Below, in pieces: positions 549 to 51,659 of a stretch of 64,000 nt of DNA (positions are counted from its first letter, which is position 1; each line of letters opens with the position of its first letter). Where the stretch lies: the NCBI GenBank assembly GCA_947175325.1, contig CAMWME010000001.1:62001-126000 (forward strand). The letters run 5' to 3'. The stretch comes from an uncultured Clostridia bacterium. Its GTDB lineage: Bacteria; Bacillota; Clostridia; Christensenellales; Borkfalkiaceae. The translations under genes and the position numbers were made by a program. The notes below the pieces were generated by a model. The model did not search any database and was not told where the DNA came from. It saw nothing but the letters and a program-made list of their open reading frames with translations.

Positions 549-2765
549 ATCGTACCATTCACCGTTTGCGATATCCGGTATTTTAACTTGAGGTGAAGTG
601 GTATCTTTATTTACGTTTACGGGCGGCAAGGAAATTTCCTTGCCGTAAATTTTATTTTCACCGTCAAAATAATACGGTGTAACAGAATATTCGTAATATC
701 CTTCGGCTGGCGTGTCCTTTATGCAACTTTGCCATTTTCCATCGTAAATCAGCTTGTTTTTGCCATTTAAACAGCGATTAACAAGATATGCATAGTACTT
801 TGTCTGACATAATATAATGTTTACTTCGCCATTTTTTACCGAAATTGTAGGCATGACTATTGAGGGTGAAGAAAATTTCATGCTTTTATCTTTTGGCTCA
901 TTGCCGCTTAAAACCTTAACTTCCAAAACGTTTAATTTGGGCGAAATGTCGTCTGCAAGAATCATTTTATTGTTGTTATAATAATCTTCAGCGTCAATTT
1001 TGACAGTGGAAGTCCCGCTTGAAGTGTCAAGCTTTTGCGGTGTATGGTCGGCATAAAGCCTATTCAAGATATCGCCAACGTAGTCGCAACAGTTGCCGCC
1101 GCCGGTAATTTTTAGTCTTTTATTGTCTTTATCGCCAAGCCATACGCCTATGCAGTGTTCAGATGTATAGCTTATGGCGTAGGCGTCGGTATTTCCTTCG
1201 GAATTCCCGCAAGTACCCGTTTTTGTGGCTATATCGTATTTAAAATTTGCAAGGGCTTTTGCCGTTCCGCTTTTAGAGGTTGCTATAAGCATTTCGTTCA
1301 TAAGTGAACAAGTTCCGTTTGAGAATACGGGATTAGAGAATTCTTCAGCTCTATAAATTGCTTGACCGTTTTTTGAAATAATCTCTTTTATGAAGCGGGA
1401 GGGGGCGTAAGTGCCTCCGCGTTGAAAAATTGAGTATCTGTCAACGATATCTTTAAGGCTAAGCCCATACTTCATTCCGCCGAGCGCCAGCGACAAATTC
1501 TTTTCGTCGTCTTCAAGCGCAATATTCATACGTGTTAGGTACTTTTCAGCGTTATCAATAGTCAATGAATTAAGTGTTTTTACTGCGGGAACGTTGTAGC
1601 TGTACTTCAAGCTGTCGGCAATCGTAACGTATCCGTGGTATTTTTTATCGTAATTTTCGGGCGAATATCCGCTAAAATCCACCTTTTCGTCGAGAATTCT
1701 TGTAAAAGGACTTACAAGTTTTTCTTCAATGGCGGGTGCGTAGACAAGTGCGGGCTTAATCGTAGAACCGGGCTGTCTTTTGGCATCACCAACCGTGGAT
1801 TTGTATGCGCTGACTCCGCCGTTAAAAGAGGTTACGATAACTGCGTTGTCTGTGTCGTAATTAAGTTCTTCAATTAGGTTTTGCAAAGAAGGGTTTAGAT
1901 ACGTCTTTATTTTACAACCTTCAGTGAGGTCGTAAACGTTTAAATCCAGCGTTTCCAGTTCGTCAAAAACGGCACTAATATACGATGAATTCTTATCGCC
2001 GCTTACCGTTTGTACTGCGTTTAGCGGTGTTTTTATTGCTTTATCATACTTGATTTGGTCGATAAAACCGCAGTCAAGCATAGCTTTTAATACCAAATTG
2101 CGCTTTTTAAGGCTTTTTTCTGGGTTTTTAAAAGGCGAAAAATTATTCGGCGAAGTCAAAAGTCCGACCAAAGTTGCGCTTTCGGTAAGTGAAAGGTCTT
2201 CGGCTTTTTTGTCGAAATAGAATTCTGCGGCACTTTGCAGCCCGTAACAGTTGTGTCCGAAGTAGATGGTGTTCAAATACATTTCCAAGATTTCGTCTTT
2301 TGAATAAACTCTTTCAAGCTGTTTCGTTAGGCGGATTTCGTTCAGTTTTCTTTTAATAGTTTTGTCGTTAGAGAGGTGGGTATTTTTAATAAGCTGCTGA
2401 CTTATCGTTGAAGCACCTTCCTTAAATGAGCGGGAGACCACGTTTTTATAAAGGGCTTTAAACATTCTTTTGTAATTTAAGCCGTTGTGTGAATAAAAAG
2501 TTCTGTCTTCGCTTGCAATAAAGGCGTTCACCGTGTCTTGGGGAAGCTTTTCGATTTCAACGCTTTTATGCTTATTTGAAGCGGATGCGCTTACTATTTC
2601 TTTACCGTTTTCGTCGCAGATGGTAATACTTTGGTTGGGGCGTATAAGTTTACTTTCGTCCAATTTTGCGTCCTTAGTAATAATCAAATAAGACATAAAC
2701 GCCGTAAATGCAACTACTGCAAGGCTTAAAAATATAATTAAGGTTACTTTCAAAAACTTCGTCAT
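543..2765 (-). CDS. Class A penicillin-binding protein (PBP1A type)
   Basis: A 740-residue bifunctional peptidoglycan synthase. One N-terminal membrane segment (about residues 8-29) anchors it outside the cell. The GT51 glycosyltransferase domain follows, with SEDRTFYSH (catalytic Glu86), EGASTISQQLIKN and YLNTIYFGHNCYGLQSAA. The transpeptidase domain has all three active-site motifs: STIK (Ser334, Lys337), SYN (389-391) and KTGT (515-518). A short C-terminal extension beyond the transpeptidase may be an Fn3-like fold. It polymerises glycan strands and cross-links stem peptides. The start ATG has no clear Shine-Dalgarno and sits about 13 bases after an AT-rich -10-like sequence. Codons near residue 652 coincide with a degenerate copy of the dispersed 19-bp palindrome. 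Confidence 0.93.
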   Translation of the reverse strand: MTKFLKVTLIIFLSLAVVAFTAFMSYLIITKDAKLDESKLIRPNQSITICDENGKEIVSASASNKHKSVEIEKLPQDTVNAFIASEDRTFYSHNGLNYKRMFKALYKNVVSRSFKEGASTISQQLIKNTHLSNDKTIKRKLNEIRLTKQLERVYSKDEILEMYLNTIYFGHNCYGLQSAAEFYFDKKAEDLSLTESATLVGLLTSPNNFSPFKNPEKSLKKRNLVLKAMLDCGFIDQIKYDKAIKTPLNAVQTVSGDKNSSYISAVFDELETLDLNVYDLTEGCKIKTYLNPSLQNLIEELNYDTDNAVIVTSFNGGVSAYKSTVGDAKRQPGSTIKPALVYAPAIEEKLVSPFTRILDEKVDFSGYSPENYDKKYHGYVTIADSLKYSYNVPAVKTLNSLTIDNAEKYLTRMNIALEDDEKNLSLALGGMKYGLSLKDIVDRYSIFQRGGTYAPSRFIKEIISKNGQAIYRAEEFSNPVFSNGTCSLMNEMLIATSKSGTAKALANFKYDIATKTGTCGNSEGNTDAYAISYTSEHCIGVWLGDKDNKRLKITGGGNCCDYVGDILNRLYADHTPQKLDTSSGTSTVKIDAEDYYNNNKMILADDISPKLNVLEVKVLSGNEPKDKSMKFSSPSIVMPTISVKNGEVNIILCQTKYYAYLVNRCLNGKNKLIYDGKWQSCIKDTPAEGYYEYSVTPYYFDGENKIYGKEISLPPVNVNKDTTSPQVKIPDIANGEWYDL
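794..812 (+). repeat. Degenerate copy of the 19-bp palindromic repeat inside the PBP gene
   Basis: AGTACTTTGTCTGACATAA matches the consensus AGTACTATGTCAGACATAA at 17 of 19 positions. It lies antisense to its host gene, unlike the copies in miaA, the HI0933-type gene and murB. It could be chance, since the match is imperfect. Confidence 0.5.
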
Positions 2766-6742: not shown

Positions 6743-8721
6743 GTAAAATTAACATATTAAGTCAAACCGTATACAACCGTATTGCGGCCGGTGAAGTAGT
6801 TGACAGACCGTACTCAGCCGTAAAGGAGCTTGTTGAAAACAGCCTTGACGCGGGCGCAACCGAAATTGAAATTTATATTGAGAAGGGCGGGAAGCAGCTT
6901 ATAAAGGTCGTCGACAACGGCTCTGGTATTGAGCGTGACGATTTGAAGGCGGCTTTTCTTCCGCATGCAACCAGCAAAATCGCAAAGGTGGAAGATTTAG
7001 ATAATATTTTAACTTTGGGGTTTAGGGGAGAAGCACTTGCAAGCATTTCTTCGGTTGCTAAAGTCGAAATTGCGTCTAAAACTTCGGGGGCTTCTGCATT
7101 TAAAATATCTTGCGACGGTGGCAAAATAGGCGAAATTTTGCCCACCGCATTGGAAAAAGGTACTGTTATTACGGTAAATAACCTATTTTTCAATACGCCC
7201 GTGCGTGCTAAATTTTTGAAAGACGACAAAAAGGAAGAAGCGGACGTTACAAACTTTATCACGCGCTATATTTTAAGCAAACCCGCCGTTTCGTTTAAGT
7301 ATTACGTTGACGGTAAACTTACTTTGCAGTCTTTCGGCGGAGGACTTGACGAGGCCGTAGCGCAAGTTTACGGTGCAAAAGTTCTGTCGCAATGTTTTAA
7401 AATAGAAGCGGAAAAGAACGGTGTAGTTATTCGAGGATTTATCGGTAACCAGAACTTTTTCAAACCTAATAAAACCTATCAAAGCGTTTTTTTAAACGGG
7501 AGATATATTGTCAACAATACTATTGCAACGGCAATTAACCAAGCCTATGCAAGCTATATGATGAAACGGCAGTTTCCTTTTTACGTGTTGAACGTGGACG
7601 TGCCTTCTGATATCGTTGACGTTAACGTGCATCCGAGCAAGGCGGACGTTAGGTTTATTGATAACCGATTTGTGTTCGGAGCAGTTTATTCCGTGGTTTC
7701 GTCAGTGCTTGACGGCACTGCTAAGGCGGCGGATTTTGTTCTCAACGAATCACGCTTGCCCGAAATCCAGTCCAAAATCGACGGTAAGGATGGGGCTAAC
7801 AAGGTTTATAAAGAAGCTTCAACAACCACAACAAGCGCAGATTTAGCTCAACTTTTGCAAAAGTACGATAAATCGAGCGCTGTTGCCGAAGATATGAAGG
7901 CGGCAGGCATTAGGTTTACAGAGGCACCCGTCAAAAGCGAAGAGTCAAAATCGGATAAACAGCAAGTGAGTTATTTTGACCCGTTTAAGGACGTTGCGCT
8001 TTCCGAGCTTATGCCTAAGCAAAACGTAAGCACAATGCGTGTTACCGACGACACTATGCCGCCAAGTCTTAACGGAAATATTGCGGCGTATGAGGTTGAA
8101 AGCCGCATATTTAATAAGAGGCTGCAAGAACAGCAGAAAATCGAGTACGCTTCTTGCAAATATAAGGGCAATCTTTTCAATACATATTTAATATACGAGG
8201 TTGCAGACACCGTCTATATGATAGACCAGCATGCGGCTCACGAAAGGTTGATTTACGATAGGCTTCGTGAAAAACTTGCAAATAGGAATATTGCTAGGCA
8301 AGCGTTGCTTGTGCCGTATATTTTTACTGCAAATCCCGCCGAAGCGCGCTTTTTAGAGGAAAAACAACTACTTTTAAGAAATATGGGCTTTGGGATAGCC
8401 TCTTTCGGGTTCGAATCGTTCAGAATTGACGAAGTGCCCGTTGACTTGCAAGATATAAATATAAAAGAATTTTTTGACGATATTCTTGCTGAAGTGGACG
8501 GACTTAAAGAAATAAAACTGGAAGACGTTTTAAAAGATAAAATTGCTATGACTGCATGTAAACACGCTATTAAGGGCGGGATGCAGCTTACTGACGGTGA
8601 AGTGGACGCTCTTTTCAAACTTTTAGACGGTAATATGGGCTTAAAATGTCCTCACGGCAGACCGATTTGCGTTACTTTAACTAAAAAAGATGTCGAGAAA
8701 ATGTTTAAAAGGATAGTGTAA
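6739..8721 (+). CDS. mutL: DNA mismatch repair endonuclease MutL
   Basis: A 660-residue MutL. The GHKL ATPase occupies the N-terminal third, with ENSLDAGA, DNGSGI, GFRGEALASI and a loop with FFNTPVR. A variable linker (about residues 330-450) leads to the C-terminal dimerisation and nuclease domain. The DQHAAHERL metal-binding motif (about residue 495), ACKHAIKGG and the terminal CPHGRP motif indicate an endonuclease-active MutL, as expected in bacteria without MutH. It overlaps mutS by 4 bases and miaA by 1 base. Confidence 0.97.
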   Translation: MSKINILSQTVYNRIAAGEVVDRPYSAVKELVENSLDAGATEIEIYIEKGGKQLIKVVDNGSGIERDDLKAAFLPHATSKIAKVEDLDNILTLGFRGEALASISSVAKVEIASKTSGASAFKISCDGGKIGEILPTALEKGTVITVNNLFFNTPVRAKFLKDDKKEEADVTNFITRYILSKPAVSFKYYVDGKLTLQSFGGGLDEAVAQVYGAKVLSQCFKIEAEKNGVVIRGFIGNQNFFKPNKTYQSVFLNGRYIVNNTIATAINQAYASYMMKRQFPFYVLNVDVPSDIVDVNVHPSKADVRFIDNRFVFGAVYSVVSSVLDGTAKAADFVLNESRLPEIQSKIDGKDGANKVYKEASTTTTSADLAQLLQKYDKSSAVAEDMKAAGIRFTEAPVKSEESKSDKQQVSYFDPFKDVALSELMPKQNVSTMRVTDDTMPPSLNGNIAAYEVESRIFNKRLQEQQKIEYASCKYKGNLFNTYLIYEVADTVYMIDQHAAHERLIYDRLREKLANRNIARQALLVPYIFTANPAEARFLEEKQLLLRNMGFGIASFGFESFRIDEVPVDLQDINIKEFFDDILAEVDGLKEIKLEDVLKDKIAMTACKHAIKGGMQLTDGEVDALFKLLDGNMGLKCPHGRPICVTLTKKDVEKMFKRIV

Positions 8722-9632
8722 TGCCCCAAAAAGTTCTCGTTATCTGTGGCGCAACGGCATCGGGCAAGACGCGGCTTGCCGTTGACTGCGCCTTAAAATT
8801 GAATACCGAAATCATTTCAGCCGATTCACAGCTTATTTATAAAGGACTTAATATCGGCACAGCCAAGCCAAACAAGGAAGAAATGTGCGGCGTAAAACAC
8901 CATATGATTGACGTCGTTGAGCCGACGGAGTCTTTCAGCGTATCCGATTACAGTGAAAGGGCTTTGCCGATTCTTGAAAAGTTGCTTTCTGAAGGAAAAA
9001 CGCCGATAATTTGCGGCGGAACGGGGTTTTATATAAATTCCTTGCTATTTGATTTGGGTTACGGCAATGCGGCGGCAGACGAAACCGTGCGTGAGAAATA
9101 CGCAGATTTTTTAGAAAAGAACGGCAGAGCCGCGCTTTTTGATAAATTAAAGGAAGTTGACCCCGAAACTGCGGCGGTTCTTCACCCTAATGACGTGAAG
9201 CGCGTAATCCGTGCTCTAGAAATATACGAGGTCAGCGGCAAGAAAAAATCCGCACAAAACGATAATCTTGTACCGAAGTACGACTTTGTTGCCGTTGCTA
9301 TAAACTATCCAAGGGAAGAACTTTACGAAAGAATTAATCGTAGAGTTGACGAAATGTTTAATCAAGGACTTGTAGAAGAAGTTCAAAGTCTTTTACAGCG
9401 TGGAATAGACGAAAATTGCCAATGTATGCAAGCAATTGGCTATAAAGAGGTTGTTTTTGGCTTAAATAATAACAATTTACGAAGTACTATGTCAGACATA
9501 ATTAAGCAAAATACACGGCATTACGCAAAAAGGCAGATAACTTTTTTCAAAAAAATGCCCAATTTGGTGTGTGTTGCGCCCGAAGAAGCTACTGCGGAGA
9601 GAATAGCGGAGATTTTAAATGAAACTAATTGA
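8721..9632 (+). CDS. miaA: tRNA dimethylallyltransferase MiaA
   Basis: 303 residues. It transfers a dimethylallyl group to A37 of tRNAs reading UNN codons, giving the i6A that MiaB thiolates. It has the P-loop GATASGKT (residues 10-17), SADSQLIYKGLNIGTAKP, CGGTGFYINSLL, the ALEIYEVSGKKKS region and the C-terminal AKRQITFFKK motif. Residues 255-260 (STMSDI), between GYKEVVFGL and IKQNTRHYAKRQ, are encoded by a copy of the dispersed 19-bp palindrome. This stretch is variable in the family and overall length looks normal, so the enzyme should still work. It overlaps the next gene by 14 bases. Confidence 0.97.
   Translation: MPQKVLVICGATASGKTRLAVDCALKLNTEIISADSQLIYKGLNIGTAKPNKEEMCGVKHHMIDVVEPTESFSVSDYSERALPILEKLLSEGKTPIICGGTGFYINSLLFDLGYGNAAADETVREKYADFLEKNGRAALFDKLKEVDPETAAVLHPNDVKRVIRALEIYEVSGKKKSAQNDNLVPKYDFVAVAINYPREELYERINRRVDEMFNQGLVEEVQSLLQRGIDENCQCMQAIGYKEVVFGLNNNNLRSTMSDIIKQNTRHYAKRQITFFKKMPNLVCVAPEEATAERIAEILNETN
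9483..9501 (+). repeat. Dispersed 19-bp palindromic repeat, copy in miaA
   Basis: Exact consensus AGTACTATGTCAGACATAA, in sense orientation. It contains the 13-base dyad TATGTC-A-GACATA. It is read in frame 1 as STMSDI (MiaA residues 255-260). The same 19 bases occur exactly at 24274 and, reversed, at 51134. Confidence 0.9.
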
Positions 9633-16197: not shown

Positions 16198-16216
16198 AGT
16201 ACTATGCGTGGCATAA
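16198..16216 (+). repeat. Diverged copy of the dispersed palindrome, intergenic
   Basis: AGTACTATGCGTGGCATAA shares the first nine and last four bases with the consensus. The inner bases differ but the dyad is kept (TATGC / GCATA). The flank TTTTGCA just upstream resembles the upstream flank of the copy at 24274. It lies between purB and tRNA-Trp. Confidence 0.7.
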
Positions 16217-23856: not shown

Positions 23857-25083
23857 ATGAGTGAAGTTGCTGTTATCGGAGCGGGCGCTGCCGGACTTAT
23901 TGCCGCGTATTTCGCCGCAAAGAACGGAAATAAAGTAACCGTATTCGAAAAAAACGAAAAAAGCGGTAAAAAAATTTATATAACGGGTAAGGGAAGATGT
24001 AACGTTACGCACGATTGCACGCCCGAGGAGTTCCTTGAAAACGTAGTGTCTAACCCTAAATTTATGACGGGCGCTATCTATTCGTTTTCGCCTTCAAAGT
24101 GCGTACAGTTTTTCGAGGACGGCGGTTTAAAGCTGAAGCTTGAGCGTGGGGCAAGGTTTTTCCCCGTAACCGACAAGGCAAGCGACGTTACACGCTGCCT
24201 TGAAAATTATTGCAAAAATGCCGGTGTAACCTTCAAATTTAACGAAAAAGTGCTTAAAATTGGTATTTTGCACAGTACTATGTCAGACATAACTACAACA
24301 AACGGCAGTTATAAGTTTGATAAAGTTATCGTTTGTACGGGCGGATTAAGTTATCCGTCGACCGGTTCTACGGGTGACGGTTATGAGTTCGCAAAAGATG
24401 CTGGGCACAAGATAATTCCTTTAAAGCAAGGCTTGTGCGGTTTAAATTTAAAGGGAGACTTTTATAAGCCTTTGCAAGGGTTAACCTTAAAAAACGTCAA
24501 TTTATCCGTTTTTAATGGTGAAAAGCTTATTAAAAGTTTCTTCGGTGAAATGCTTTTTACGCATTTCGGAATATCTGGACCAATCGTTTTATCTTCTTCA
24601 AGCCTTATAAATAGGTTAGATTTAAAGCAAATTAGACTTGTTTTGGACTTAAAACCCGCGTTAAGCGATGAGCAGCTTGATAAGAGGCTTTTAAGGGACT
24701 TTGAGACTTACAAAAATAAATCAATTTCAAACTGTTTGAAAGAGTTGTTGCCCGTTGCGCTTATTCCCGAAGTATTGAAAAGAAGTGGAATTAAACCCGA
24801 AATTCAAGTAAATTCGGTAACTAAAGCGCAAAGATTAAGTTTATTGACATCTGTCAAAAATTTTGATATGATTGTGGCGTCTTTGAGGGACTTTTCAGAG
24901 GCAATAATTACTTGCGGAGGCGTTGACGTTAAGGAAATCAACCCCAAAACAATGGAAAGTAAACTAATAAGAGGGCTGTATTTTTGCGGTGAAGTGCTTG
25001 ATTTGGATGCATTCACGGGCGGATTTAACCTTCAAATAGCCTTTTCAACTGGCTACGCGGCGGGAAACAGTATAAAGGATTAA
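23857..25083 (+). CDS. HI0933-type NAD(P)/FAD-dependent oxidoreductase
   Basis: 408 residues of the HI0933 (YhiN) flavoprotein family. It has the dinucleotide fold VIGAGAAGLIAAYFAAKNGNKVTVFEKN, GKKIYITGKGRCNVTH, CTGGLSYPSTGSTGDGYEFA and the C-terminal CGGVDVKEINPKTMESKLIRGLYFCGEVLDLDAFTGGFNLQ. Its biochemical role is unknown in most bacteria, although the gene is commonly found next to cmk, plsC and ispH in Clostridia. Residues 140-145 (STMSDI), in a variable strand before NGSYKFDKVIVCTGG, are encoded by an exact copy of the dispersed palindrome. Confidence 0.93.
   Translation: MSEVAVIGAGAAGLIAAYFAAKNGNKVTVFEKNEKSGKKIYITGKGRCNVTHDCTPEEFLENVVSNPKFMTGAIYSFSPSKCVQFFEDGGLKLKLERGARFFPVTDKASDVTRCLENYCKNAGVTFKFNEKVLKIGILHSTMSDITTTNGSYKFDKVIVCTGGLSYPSTGSTGDGYEFAKDAGHKIIPLKQGLCGLNLKGDFYKPLQGLTLKNVNLSVFNGEKLIKSFFGEMLFTHFGISGPIVLSSSSLINRLDLKQIRLVLDLKPALSDEQLDKRLLRDFETYKNKSISNCLKELLPVALIPEVLKRSGIKPEIQVNSVTKAQRLSLLTSVKNFDMIVASLRDFSEAIITCGGVDVKEINPKTMESKLIRGLYFCGEVLDLDAFTGGFNLQIAFSTGYAAGNSIKD
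24274..24292 (+). repeat. Dispersed 19-bp palindromic repeat, copy in HI0933-type gene
   Basis: Exact consensus AGTACTATGTCAGACATAA in sense orientation, read in frame 1 as STMSDI (residues 140-145). The upstream flank TTTTGCAC resembles that of the intergenic copy at 16198. Confidence 0.9.
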
Positions 25084-39221: not shown

Positions 39222-39258
39222 TATTATGTTTGACATAGAACCTATGTCTGACATAATA
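39222..39258. repeat. Doubled palindromic repeat forming a long hairpin
   Basis: TATTATGTTTGACATAG, three bases (AAC), then CTATGTCTGACATAATA. The arms are 17 bases and pair at 15 positions. Each arm is itself a version of the 13-base dyad TATGTCWGACATA seen in the dispersed 19-bp repeat. It follows the glg terminator directly and lies about 160 bases before the dif-like site. Confidence 0.85.
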
Positions 39259-39372
39259 CCGCATTAAAATTTGATTTTTTTAACTTTTAAGCCCGTTTTT
39301 AACGTTTTTATCAATAATTTCAATAATAATTAATTTATTATAAAATGAAATTAATTTTTATAAAAAATCAGC
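39259..39372. other. AT-rich intergenic stretch without recognisable feature
   Basis: Very AT-rich sequence with runs such as AATAATTAATTTATTATAAAATG. I see no coding potential, RNA or clear operator in it. Its composition would ease strand opening, and it lies between the doubled repeat and the xer promoter. Confidence 0.6.
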
Positions 39373-39418: not shown

Positions 39419-39446
39419 ACTTCGTAAAAGCTGTGTTTTACGAACA
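39419..39446. other. dif: Candidate dif site (chromosome dimer resolution)
   Basis: A 28-base sequence of two 11-base arms, ACTTCGTAAAA and TTTTACGAACA, around a 6-base centre GCTGTG. The inner 9 bases of the arms are perfectly inverted. The left arm matches the left arm of the B. subtilis dif site (ACTTCCTAGAA, from memory) at 9 of 11 positions. It lies 73 bases upstream of a Xer-type recombinase gene and where GC skew and gene orientation change. An mRNA hairpin in the xer leader is the alternative reading. Confidence 0.65.
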
Positions 39447-39519: not shown

Positions 39520-40575
39520 ATGGCAAATTACTACGTTCAACGCAATAATAAAAACCTTGAAACAATCGAGCGGCTTTTAGACGAAGAACTTCCTTCTTTT
39601 TGCTACGATTATTTTCTCGCAATCGAAAGTCAGACTTCTACGCTCACGCGGTTAAACTACGCGCACGATTTAAAAATCTTTTTCTACTTCTTGCAAGAGA
39701 AAAAATTCCGTAAAAGTAAAACCGTAAAAGAAATGACGCTTGACGATATGGAAGCCGTAACCGGCAACGACGTTGAATATTTCCTCGGTTTCCTCTCCCG
39801 CTATTTTTATAACGGAAAAGAACACGCTTGTAATGACCGTGCAAAAGCGAGAAAGCTCTCCTCCGTCCGTGCAATGTTTAAACATTTTTTCAATAAAGGT
39901 TTTATAAGCGTTGATAATACCGCCAAGGTTGCCACACCTAAACTGCATGAAAAACCGATTATTAGGCTTGACGGCGATGAGGTATTAAATATTATTGATA
40001 CTGCCGAAAGCGGCAGCGGCCTCTCCTCACATCAACTCGCCTATCACGAAAAAAACAAAGTTCGCGATAGGGCAATTCTTATGCTTTTTCTCGGCACGGG
40101 TATCCGTATCAGCGAACTTGTAGGGCTCAACAACGACGATTTAAATTTTAAGGATAACTCCTTCGTCGTTACTCGCAAGGGCGGCAGTAAATCTATACTC
40201 TACTTTGACGACGACGTTGCAGCGGCTTTGCAACGCTATTTAGATTATAAGGAAATGAATTACGAGGATTTAAAAGAACCTAACGCCCTATTCGTTTCAA
40301 GCAACCGTAGCCGCATCACCGTTCGCGCCGTTGAAAATATGGTGCAGAAATATGCAAAAATCGTCTCCCCTCTTAAAAAGATTTCACCGCATAAACTGCG
40401 TTCAACGTACGGTACCGCGCTTTACAAGGCAACGGGCGATATCTACATCGTTGCGGACGTGTTAGGGCATAAGGACGTAAACACGACTAGAAAACATTAT
40501 GCAGCAATTAGCGACGAAAATCGCCGCGGAGTCGTAGGCAAAGTTAAACTAACCCGCGACGATGACGAGGAATAA
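39520..40575 (+). CDS. Tyrosine recombinase of Xer type (XerS-like)
   Basis: 351 residues, about 50 longer than XerC/XerD and close to the streptococcal XerS length. The N-terminal SAM-like core-binding domain (about 20-130) precedes the catalytic domain, which has all expected residues: Arg196 (GTGIRISELVGL), Lys220 (VTRKGGSK), His291 and Arg294 (HKLR), His317 (LGHKDVNTT) and nucleophile Tyr327 (RKHYA). I see no phage or transposon neighbours, so a housekeeping chromosome-dimer role with the adjacent dif-like site is likely. Plus-strand C slightly exceeds G here (hand count about 157 to 139 over 39541-40260), unlike upstream glgP. Confidence 0.9.
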   Translation: MANYYVQRNNKNLETIERLLDEELPSFCYDYFLAIESQTSTLTRLNYAHDLKIFFYFLQEKKFRKSKTVKEMTLDDMEAVTGNDVEYFLGFLSRYFYNGKEHACNDRAKARKLSSVRAMFKHFFNKGFISVDNTAKVATPKLHEKPIIRLDGDEVLNIIDTAESGSGLSSHQLAYHEKNKVRDRAILMLFLGTGIRISELVGLNNDDLNFKDNSFVVTRKGGSKSILYFDDDVAAALQRYLDYKEMNYEDLKEPNALFVSSNRSRITVRAVENMVQKYAKIVSPLKKISPHKLRSTYGTALYKATGDIYIVADVLGHKDVNTTRKHYAAISDENRRGVVGKVKLTRDDDEE

Positions 40576-40920: not shown

Positions 40921-41517
40921 ATGAACAGAGAAGCCGAAAAATTGAAGAATGAAAACGCAGTTTTCACCTTCATTCAGAAGTTTATTTCAGAGAACGGATA
41001 CGCCCCTTGCGTTCGTGAAGTGTGCAAGGCGTGCAATATAAAGTCCACCGCCACCGTTTTTAATATCATAAACCGGTTAAAAGACAAAGGTCTTTTGGAA
41101 AAATCTGACGTAAAGCGCCGCGCAATTGCTTTAAAAAGCAAATCTTTATCCGTTCCTATCTTGGGCACGGTTGCCGCGGGTCAGCCCATTTTTGCGGCAG
41201 AAAGCTACGACGGCTACGTTTCTCTGCCCGATAATTTCTTTTCCGGCGAAGATTTGTTTATGCTTAACGTACAAGGCTCGTCAATGATTAAAATAGGAAT
41301 GTTTGACGGCGATAAAGTAGTCGTAAGAAAGCAAGAAACAGCCGATAACGGCGATATCGTCGTTGCTTTGGTAGAAGACGGAGCTACGGTTAAGCGCTTT
41401 TTCAAGCGTAACGGAAAGATTATTCTTCACCCCGAAAACGACGATATGGAAGATTTTATCTTTGATAACGTTTCAATAATCGGTAAAGTCGTCGGGCTGG
41501 TCAGAAATATAAGTTAA
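40921..41517 (+). CDS. lexA: SOS repressor LexA
   Basis: 198 residues. The N-terminal winged helix (about 1-70; EVCKACNIKSTATVFNIINRLKDKGLLE) binds SOS boxes. The S24 self-cleavage domain has the Ala-Gly scissile site in GTVAAGQPIFA (86-87), nucleophile Ser121 in VQGSSMIKIGMFDGD and Lys158 in EDGATVKRFFK. RecA filaments trigger its cleavage. A GAGG Shine-Dalgarno precedes ATG and an SOS box overlaps its own promoter. Confidence 0.95.
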   Translation: MNREAEKLKNENAVFTFIQKFISENGYAPCVREVCKACNIKSTATVFNIINRLKDKGLLEKSDVKRRAIALKSKSLSVPILGTVAAGQPIFAAESYDGYVSLPDNFFSGEDLFMLNVQGSSMIKIGMFDGDKVVVRKQETADNGDIVVALVEDGATVKRFFKRNGKIILHPENDDMEDFIFDNVSIIGKVVGLVRNIS

Positions 41518-50002: not shown

Positions 50003-50782
50003 TTATAAACTCTTTATCTTATATTCTTGAAACCTAAACTTAGGAAGGCGGCTGTCAATATTGTCGATTTGTTCCATAGGAACACTTGCCTCTTTCAATA
50101 CTTCTTCGGCAATCTTCGTATCGCCTACTCTGTCCGCAGAATGCGCGTCTGAATCAATTACAAATCGTACGCCCGTAGCTGCCATTCTGTTAAGCTCCTC
50201 TGCTGAAACGTGCCTTTTTTTCGTATTGATTTCGATATAAGTTCCGTAATCTGCACAGCACTTGGCCACTTCTTCCAAGTCACAATAACATTTATAGTTG
50301 ATATGCGTTAAAATATCAATAGGATTATTCTTAATAGCGTTAATATAAGCCTTAGTGGTCGTGTCAATTATTTTCTTTGAAGGAGTCCTTCCAAACTTAT
50401 ACGCCATATAGTTTTTAAGCATAATGTTGTAAAAGTCGGAAAATTTTTTATATTTAAGAACTTCGTGTATTCCACACAGATATAAATCGAAGTACTGTAA
50501 ATCACTCTCTTTCATATCCGTTTCACCACTAACGGAAATCAAATTGCTTTCCATTCCCATCAGTACCTTAACGCCGGTAATCTTCTCAGCTTCATCAATT
50601 TCAGCCCTTAAATCAGCCAAATTTTTGCGTTTTAAGCCAAAAAGTAAGTGATTAAAGCCGTGGTCGGTAATTCCAACCTGTAAAAGTCCCTTTGATTTTG
50701 CCGCTTTTGCGTTTTCCCAAACAGTATTTTTGCCGTGAGAATACGGCGTATGAATATGATAATCAGCAGTTAAGTTCATCAT
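50003..50782 (-). CDS. PHP-domain phosphoesterase (histidinol-phosphatase-like)
   Basis: 259 residues from ATG 50782, which has AGGTG 7 bases upstream; GTG 50791 is an alternative. It has the metal-binding N-terminal motif DYHIHTPYSHGKN, ITDHGFNHL, MGMESNLIS, DILTHINYKCY and FVIDSDAHSADRVGD, which provide the His and Asp ligands of a PHP trinuclear site. Members next to murB are annotated as histidinol-phosphatase-like, but the true substrate is unknown. It overlaps murB by 20 bases. Confidence 0.85.
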   Translation of the reverse strand: MMNLTADYHIHTPYSHGKNTVWENAKAAKSKGLLQVGITDHGFNHLLFGLKRKNLADLRAEIDEAEKITGVKVLMGMESNLISVSGETDMKESDLQYFDLYLCGIHEVLKYKKFSDFYNIMLKNYMAYKFGRTPSKKIIDTTTKAYINAIKNNPIDILTHINYKCYCDLEEVAKCCADYGTYIEINTKKRHVSAEELNRMAATGVRFVIDSDAHSADRVGDTKIAEEVLKEASVPMEQIDNIDSRLPKFRFQEYKIKSL

Positions 50783-51659
50783 TAAATTCACCTATGTAAA
50801 TAACCTCTTCTTCAAGGTTTATCCCCGTCGTTTCGTAAACGGTCTTCTTAACGGCTTTTATAAGCGCGTAAACGTCGGCTGAACTTCCTCCGTTATTTAT
50901 AATAAAATTTGCGTGTTCACGGCTGACTTCCGCCCCGCCGATTCTCATTCCTTTTAAACCTAAATCGTCTATAATCTTTCCGGCGCTAAACCCTTCGGGA
51001 TTCTTGAATACACAACCGCAACTTTTTCCCTTTGGTTGTAGCTTTCTTTTATTAAGATAGTAATTAATGTTTGTTTCAACTATTTCGGGCTTTTCACGTT
51101 CAAAACCTGCATAAACTGCCAAAACTAAGGCGTTTATGTCTGACATAGTACTATGTTTATTGCCAAAATTGCAGTTTTTATTTGAAAATTCACGCATTTT
51201 ACCGTCAAAAACTTTAACAGTCAGAATATTACTTGCGATGCGCCTATCGCTTGTTCCGCCGTTCATTACGGTAAGTCCGCCGATGCTTGCGGGTATTGCG
51301 GCAAGATATTCAAAACCCGTTATCCCGTTTTTAACGCAAAAAGATAAAAGCTGCTGCACCGTTGTTCCGCTTAAAATTTTAAGGCAGTTACCTTCTATTT
51401 CAATTCCTTGTAAATATTTAGTGCAGATGACCGAGCCGTCATAATACTTATCTGATACCAGAAGATTAGAGCCTTTTCCTAAAATTACGAACTTTTCGCC
51501 GCTGATTTTTAAATATTTATATACTGCAACGGCCTCATCTTCGTTTTGTGGGAAATAAGCCGTTTTAGCTCTACCACCTAAACCGTACGTGGTATGCTTT
51601 GAAAAATCGAAATTAGGCTCAGATTTGACGGATTTTACAGCGTTTTCGAGTCTACGCAA
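50763..51659 (-). CDS. murB: UDP-N-acetylenolpyruvoylglucosamine reductase MurB
   Basis: 298 residues from a TTG start with GAGGTGG upstream. It reduces UDP-GlcNAc-enolpyruvate to UDP-MurNAc using NADPH and FAD. It has FSKHTTYGLGGRAKTAYFP, ILGKGSNLLVSD, GFEYLAAIPASIGGLTVMNGG, and the catalytic loop GKSCGCVFKNPEGFSAGKIID with Cys where many have Ser. The usual FGYRxS substrate-binding segment reads FGNKHS and runs into STMSDI (170-175), which is an exact, reversed-strand copy of the dispersed palindrome. Functional consequence is unknown. Confidence 0.93.
   Translation of the reverse strand: MRRLENAVKSVKSEPNFDFSKHTTYGLGGRAKTAYFPQNEDEAVAVYKYLKISGEKFVILGKGSNLLVSDKYYDGSVICTKYLQGIEIEGNCLKILSGTTVQQLLSFCVKNGITGFEYLAAIPASIGGLTVMNGGTSDRRIASNILTVKVFDGKMREFSNKNCNFGNKHSTMSDINALVLAVYAGFEREKPEIVETNINYYLNKRKLQPKGKSCGCVFKNPEGFSAGKIIDDLGLKGMRIGGAEVSREHANFIINNGGSSADVYALIKAVKKTVYETTGINLEEEVIYIGEFNDELNC
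51134..51152 (-). repeat. Dispersed 19-bp palindromic repeat, copy in murB
   Basis: Exact consensus AGTACTATGTCAGACATAA on the minus (coding) strand, read in frame 1 as STMSDI (residues 170-175). With the flanking ACAT it forms a further palindrome ACATAGTACTATGT. Confidence 0.9.

Follow-up and report, generated by a model that had tools for sequence, protein, structure and literature searches.

Why does one 19-bp word recur exactly in three unrelated genes of a single stretch of chromosome? The stretch analysed here (the window, 64 kb) is C1:62001-126000 of a 1.54 Mb assembly in 25 contigs. It carries AGTACTATGTCAGACATAA at 9483..9501 (+) inside miaA (8721-9632; TIGR00174), at 24274..24292 (+) inside a TIGR00275 (HI0933-type) flavoprotein gene (23857-25083), and at 51134..51152 (-) inside murB (50763-51659, -). 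The recurrence reported by a sequence-only reading is real: with up to 3 mismatches allowed we found 6 matches in the window against 0.01 expected, and 0 of 100 shuffles gave 6 or more. The three variants that this reading had mentioned were also found, namely AGTACTTTGTCTGACATAA at 794..812 (+), antisense in a PBP1A-family gene (543-2765, -), and two weak intergenic sites in tandem at 39224..39242 (-) and 39242..39260 (-). Another intergenic site, AGTACTATGCGTGGCATAA at 16198..16216 (+), was absent from its list. A text search of the open-licence PMC literature for the site sequence gave 12 papers; the 10 that were listed contain only the 11-mer AGTACTATGTC and are unrelated by title, and the earlier remark that no described family has such a sequence agrees with this.

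The word had been proposed to be a mobile palindromic element tolerated within proteins, read in sense and in one frame as STMSDI. The peptide does lie at residues 255 (miaA), 140 (HI0933-type) and 170 (murB), in agreement with the ORF coordinates. Sense and frame hold for the three exact copies but not for the others, since the copy at 794 is antisense and those at 39224, 39242 and 16198 are intergenic; the all-sense, same-frame pattern reflects the fact that genes close to the terminus are mostly co-directional with replication. What stands is an over-represented palindromic element at the DNA level that proteins tolerate; mobility does not, given orthologous positions, intergenic and antisense copies and no indel in murB.

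To follow the codons under a site we assembled a murB set by protein and not by site: of the 53 genomes that gave a match it takes the best 30, whose proteins share 49-100% identity with MurB of the window. AGT was present in 30/30 genomes (serine share elsewhere 0.16), ACT in 25/25 with threonine (0.22), ATA in 30/30 (0.41 elsewhere) and GAC in 24/29 (0.53), while the middle residue varied between S, R, C and Q. MurB aligned without gaps through the site, both to solved MurB and to the MurB of 29 relatives, so the codons were substituted and not inserted. Across eight gene homes (orthologous positions holding a site) the same-codon fraction was 0.88-0.97 at the site against 0.62-0.65 elsewhere, figures that are inflated because these homes were picked by motif match; the murB set is free of that. 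No other stretch equalled the site in six of the eight homes; in miaA and gene7, 5 of 264 and 1 of 190 stretches, respectively, did equal it. Peptides at the sites vary (STMRDI, STMCDI, STVSGI, LCQTKYY). These comparisons show a synonymous, DNA-level constraint at the predicted sites and speak against protein-level conservation of STMSDI. Three identical copies in unrelated proteins would suit an insertion element or a conserved peptide, but orthologous positions, intergenic and antisense copies, the gapless murB and synonymous constraint with varying peptides make either one extremely improbable; we rejected a mobile element, a peptide-sense element and a codon coincidence on these grounds. 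The suggested likeness to Rickettsia-type palindromic elements, which are in-frame and mobile, fails in the same way: the sites here are orthologous across the genus, may be antisense or intergenic, leave murB gapless, and lie on a strand that tracks the direction to dif.

Predicted sites cluster at the terminus and point towards dif

GC skew changes from positive to negative at about 39 kb of the window and keeps its sign in 10-kb bins over the remaining contig read, which places the replication terminus there. A dif-like palindrome, TTCGTAAAA-GCTGTG-TTTTACGAA (39421..39444, +), lies at the flip, and beside it a gene for a tyrosine recombinase (XerS/XerC/XerD-like by NCBIfam profile matches; 39520..40575, +), the putative dif recombinase, whose top models were XerS, XerC, XerA and XerD, each below its cut-off. 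The weak tandem pair at 39224-39260 (both -) sits 0.2 kb from dif, between the glycogen phosphorylase and xer genes, and a lexA-like gene (40921-41517) directly follows xer. Among named records, the relatives found through the Xer protein were mostly MAGs of uncultured Clostridia (Bacillota, Clostridia), three of them named Candidatus Coproplasma. In a test of xer loci (60 of 75 used; fragments and distant ones dropped) a dif-like sequence with at most 4 mismatches was found upstream of xer in 56/59; in the g19 and remoter loci the best match was 3 to 9 mismatches off. GC skew and gene strand both flip at dif in four further genomes.

In the window's genome, 12 places matched the 19-mer with at most 3 mismatches. 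All five to the left of dif were on the + strand and all three to the right on the - strand; the others were the - strand pair 0.2 kb left of dif and two places on other contigs. Each of the five exact core palindromes of this genome lay on the dif contig. We then scored that contig with a 36-position weight matrix, in whose training the window's genome (G000), sites with more than 2 mismatches and sites pointing away were left out and orthologues of the same places included. Nine strong matches (32 to 45 bits) were obtained, 9/9 toward dif, and the best score on the one shuffled contig that served as background was 6.7. Those of the nine that lie in the window are the sites at 794 (38.0), 9483 (43.3), 16198 (32.0), 24274 (39.3) and 51134 (44.7). 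Fourteen matches scored at least 8: the nine at 32 or above, all toward, and five weaker ones, of which one pointed toward dif and four away. Two of those four were strong sites read on the opposite strand and two were the dif-side pair (9.6 at 39224, 17.1 at 39242).

The motif was present in 61/61 genus genomes searched, the window's included, at 1 to 38 places each (0 to 2 for a reversed-pattern control). Two genomes, G002 and G074, hold 37 and 38 places; other members of the genus hold at most 19.

Eleven genomes with a long xer contig were analysed more closely, taking as places all matches within 3 mismatches of one 19-mer, so that looser sites fall outside. The xer/dif contigs, which make up roughly a quarter of the sequence, carried 134 of 155 places; for polarity, gene context, homes and motif we used 154, leaving out G069:C9:5753 (3 mismatches, off the xer contig), with the 134 unaffected. 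There were 9 to 16 sites per genome on the dif contig, most within about 100 kb of dif. In the bin closest to dif (0-25 kb) there were 7.1 sites per 100 kb; past 150 kb the density was below 1, and past 275 kb it was 0. A refined motif adds others, among them two sites pointing toward dif at G068:C1:324112 and 473976, which lie 268 and 118 kb from it.

With dif set 120 bp from xer (for polarity, gene context and homes), 102 of the 122 sites more than 1.5 kb away pointed toward dif and 20 away from it; at no more than 1 mismatch, 31/32 pointed toward. Palindromic places may count on both strands here. Fitting a single + to - switch per genome, which merges such places and makes no use of dif, left 12 misfits among 131; in 2000 strand shuffles the misfits averaged 41.3 and never fell below 30. 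Because orthologous sites are not independent, we also counted by orthologous home (n=35): 29 were all toward, two all away and four mixed.

Site strand tracks replication more than reading frame. Under long-ORF gene calls, which make genic and intergenic labels approximate (the G013 padR site is labelled genic), intergenic sites of the 11 genomes were 38 toward and 3 away. Co-directional genes contained 53 sense sites pointing toward dif and 14 antisense sites pointing away; head-on genes contained 11 antisense sites pointing toward and 3 sense sites pointing away, each of these three with 3 mismatches.

The 19-bp word is the core of a longer site, with an approximate consensus WTTT-N6-TTTRCRW-AGTACTATGYNNNRCATAAW. 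Its AGTAC side faces the origin on each arm. From 32 homes (at most 2 mismatches, away homes excluded) we derived an origin-proximal extension of A/T tracts spaced by one helical turn (-16 to -12 and -6 to -4), RCRW, then AGTACTATGYNNNRCATAA and W. The short core TATGTCWGACATA was matched in only 16/41 genomes, and the remaining genus members were picked up with the longer asymmetric motif. Versions matching both strands, possibly two-way, occur at G248:C23:22786, G248:C23:42876 and G192:C5:15512.

Across 200 sampled genomes of the order, the motif was frequent in the window's family only. By genus it occurred in 6/6 genomes of g1 (10-17 places) and 6/6 of g19 (8-20), and at 0 places in the single g18 genome; other families mostly had 0-1 places, and in three of them some members had a higher count. 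A looser pattern was in clear excess over its reversed control in G148 (19/1), G248 (10/0) and G181 (10/1), and in weaker excess in G129 (6/0), G182 (10/2), G078 (10/3), G237 (7/3), G165 (5/2) and G029 (3/0). Positions from the 61-genome and 200-genome scans, and all polarity outside the 11 genomes, are those among the matches listed, with palindromic places set aside for polarity. On this basis the six genomes of the sister genus g19 gave 29 toward and 2 away, and G148, of another family, 11 and 0. The corresponding numbers were 12 and 3 for G077, G205 and G218 together, 3 and 2 for G165, G237 and G248 together, 1 and 1 each for G165 and G237, and 2 and 2 for G192. These counts show that the predicted sites cluster at the terminus, point toward dif and are conserved in the genus and its sister genus. 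The g18 genome G102 (98%-complete) had no sites and no match at E 0.001 to padR-TM (see below) or to this xer; the whole set may have been lost there or be ancestrally absent.

A candidate binding protein encoded next to the window

The RTP profile PF02334 gave as its best match 14.9 bits, against a cut-off of 26.7, and this weak match led us to a gene 3.3 kb left of the window (C1:57116-58654), here called padR-TM, for a PadR winged-helix protein of 512 aa. It matches PF03551 (E 1.7e-19; 70.1 bits, cut-off 27), and residues 19-125, the PadR domain, match PadR regulators of known structure in the PDB (E 4.5e-24). A profile of padR-TM orthologues against the PDB (E up to 10) listed 54 sequences, none of them an RTP entry. 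The PadR domain is followed by a long, variable, low-complexity linker and a hydrophobic C-terminus. Complete orthologues have 474-887 aa, and a simple hydropathy scan found at least four C-terminal hydrophobic segments in 13/13 of them; the C-terminus is probably membrane-spanning.

padR-TM and an acyl-ACP thioesterase gene are transcribed divergently, and in 11/11 genomes a site separates their promoters (10 by neighbouring genes, with families named from the window's genome, and G013 by sequence). Read by eye, it stands just before a TTGACA-like -35 box upstream of padR-TM in 5/5 genus, 6/6 g19 and 4/7 remoter orthologues. Two of the four remoter sites are degenerate (G248, G148), and no site was seen by eye in the upstream regions of G029, L087 and L092. 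Matches resembling padR-TM were also found in G029 and G088, which have few sites. Taken together, the patterns in G029, G088, L087 and L092 indicate that padR-TM does not always accompany the sites. In G248, G165 and G148 the gene and xer are 2-6 kb apart, and in L087 the gene comes just downstream of xer. At the other recurrent intergenic homes (11 clusters, some partial) no DNA-binding neighbour was recognised by eye. A different palindrome in the padR promoter of the window's genome, AGTTAAATATTAACT, was absent from 10 other genomes and was rejected as a family operator.

PadR dimers share the topology and dimer organisation of RTP, and PadR operators consist of ATGT/ACAT repeats, according to excerpts of PMC3506622. 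In the sites described here a palindrome RCAT-AGTACT-ATGY overlaps a second, ATGY-NNN-RCAT, so that three PadR-type (ATGT/ACAT) half-sites may load two dimers unequally. We infer that the sites would be bound by the padR-TM product, which would regulate its own promoter.

Ordinary operators of a PadR transcription regulon would account for the one site between the divergent promoters in 11 genomes, and padR-TM shares with PadR regulators the winged-helix domain and the ATGT/ACAT half-sites. Half-site spacing is 3 and 6 here versus 8-10, however, and padR-TM has its linker and hydrophobic C-terminus. Most sites lie outside promoters, within genes or at gene tails, and are terminus-clustered and polar; we regard a regulon as very unlikely. 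Words read directly by FtsK/SpoIIIE are equally hard to credit. KOPS/SRS are short words that occur in many copies along entire arms. The sites here resemble them in being polar and pointing toward dif, but are few (9-16 on the dif contig) and terminus-near (past 150 kb, fewer than 1 per 100 kb), span at least 19 bp with the kind of palindromic core that dimers typically bind, and include a padR-TM promoter site kept across families, which such a reading would have to treat as coincidental.

Fork trap or membrane tether

MatP, a ribbon-helix-helix protein, binds matS, which is non-polar. A short palindromic core repeated in the terminus region is common to matS and the present sites, but the latter are polar, with an asymmetric flank. 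Closer parallels are found among replication fork traps, the purpose of which is debated. Excerpts of Galli 2019 (PMC6549158) describe two unrelated traps as of 2019, Tus/ter and RTP/ter, with ter sites that point toward dif; by the same excerpts most bacteria are without a trap and RTP is confined to a subgroup of Bacillales. In excerpts of PMC10331603, tus and rtp are autoregulated through a ter site in their promoters, RTP ter comprises A and B half-sites of unequal affinity, and Tus binds as a monomer.

Features shared with RTP/ter of Bacillus subtilis are asymmetric sites on both sides of dif that point to it (here with exceptions), a site in the promoter of the terminator gene (here the candidate padR-TM) and a PadR-like dimeric winged helix. 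The candidate differs in being a PadR protein (PF03551) of 474-887 aa that falls below the PF02334 cut-off and has a hydrophobic C-terminus. With Tus/Ter of Escherichia coli the sites share a distribution over both arms around dif, and their presence in the padR-TM promoter parallels that of ter in the tus promoter; Tus is a monomer, whereas the palindromic core here suggests a dimer, and the candidate protein is a PadR. As judged from sequence, the architecture is that of a fork trap, yet the system is distinct from RTP. Among the papers listed by searches of the open-licence PMC literature, none dealt with a fork trap based on PadR or found in Clostridia.

On balance we think it probable that the 19-bp word forms the core of a polar site of the replication terminus, within an undescribed, PadR-based fork trap. 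The overlapping half-sites RCAT-N6-ATGY-N3-RCAT would load PadR dimers asymmetrically, much as in RTP. The asymmetric complex would let forks heading to dif pass and stop those that have run past the terminus, and a membrane anchor could keep the terminus near the envelope for Xer/dif resolution. More tentatively, and with some doubt on our part, a membrane-anchored PadR may couple fork trapping to terminus-membrane attachment beside dif; that would be a third termination system of independent origin, and the first to use an integral membrane protein as its basis. Against a fork trap, we know of no membrane anchor in Tus or RTP.

The main rival to a fork trap is a polar terminus-membrane tether, in which the sites would recruit the anchored PadR and hold the terminus at the membrane or septum, and polarity would serve FtsK/SpoIIIE and not replisomes. 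MatP/matS performs terminus tethering by other means. A tether would make good use of the hydrophobic C-terminal segments (at least four in 13/13 complete orthologues) that follow the long variable linker, and it fits the co-occurrence of padR-TM with Xer and the site found within 2.3 kb upstream of xer in 44/54 loci. It needs no strong polarity over 100 kb, however, and the promoter arrangement and the likeness of PadR to RTP fit known fork traps; we therefore consider a tether rather unlikely, though a serious alternative.

The homes that are always reversed are easier to accept under a tether than under a hard fork block. The 14 antisense sites pointing away correspond to two orthologous positions in two genes (encoding 180-182 and 335-372 aa), 6-7 kb apart where both occur, at loci that include L207 (G068:C1:641038, 646919), L191-L192 (G014), L201-L202 (G057), L222 (G013), L196-L197 (G042) and L277 (G076). 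Both homes are constrained as strongly as the others. Regardless of the arm, their sites point away from dif (14 of 15 far places). In five genomes (G001, G042, G063, G069, G076) they lie about 12 kb or less from dif, and there the single-switch fit gave no more than one misfit (0 or 1), and one or more of the best switch intervals came to 13 kb or less from dif. In four of the 11 genomes (G013, G014, G057, G068) they lie 40-55 kb from dif, which speaks against the fork-trap reading: a strong block at that distance would leave DNA unreplicated. The same reading is weakened by the either-strand orientation of the dif-side sites upstream of xer (30 loci on +, 10 on -, 4 on both), by the even counts in G192, G165 and G237, by the PF02334 score below cut-off and by the padR-TM genes with no site seen upstream.

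Whichever protein reads the sites, a chromosomal DNA function appears to freeze codons within enzymes such as MurB. If the fork-trap reading is true, a third trap of the same architecture, with a PadR/RTP-like fold and a membrane anchor, in uncultured gut Clostridia would show repeated convergence, would suggest a route from PadR regulators to RTP, and would tie replication termination to the organisation of the chromosome at the membrane.
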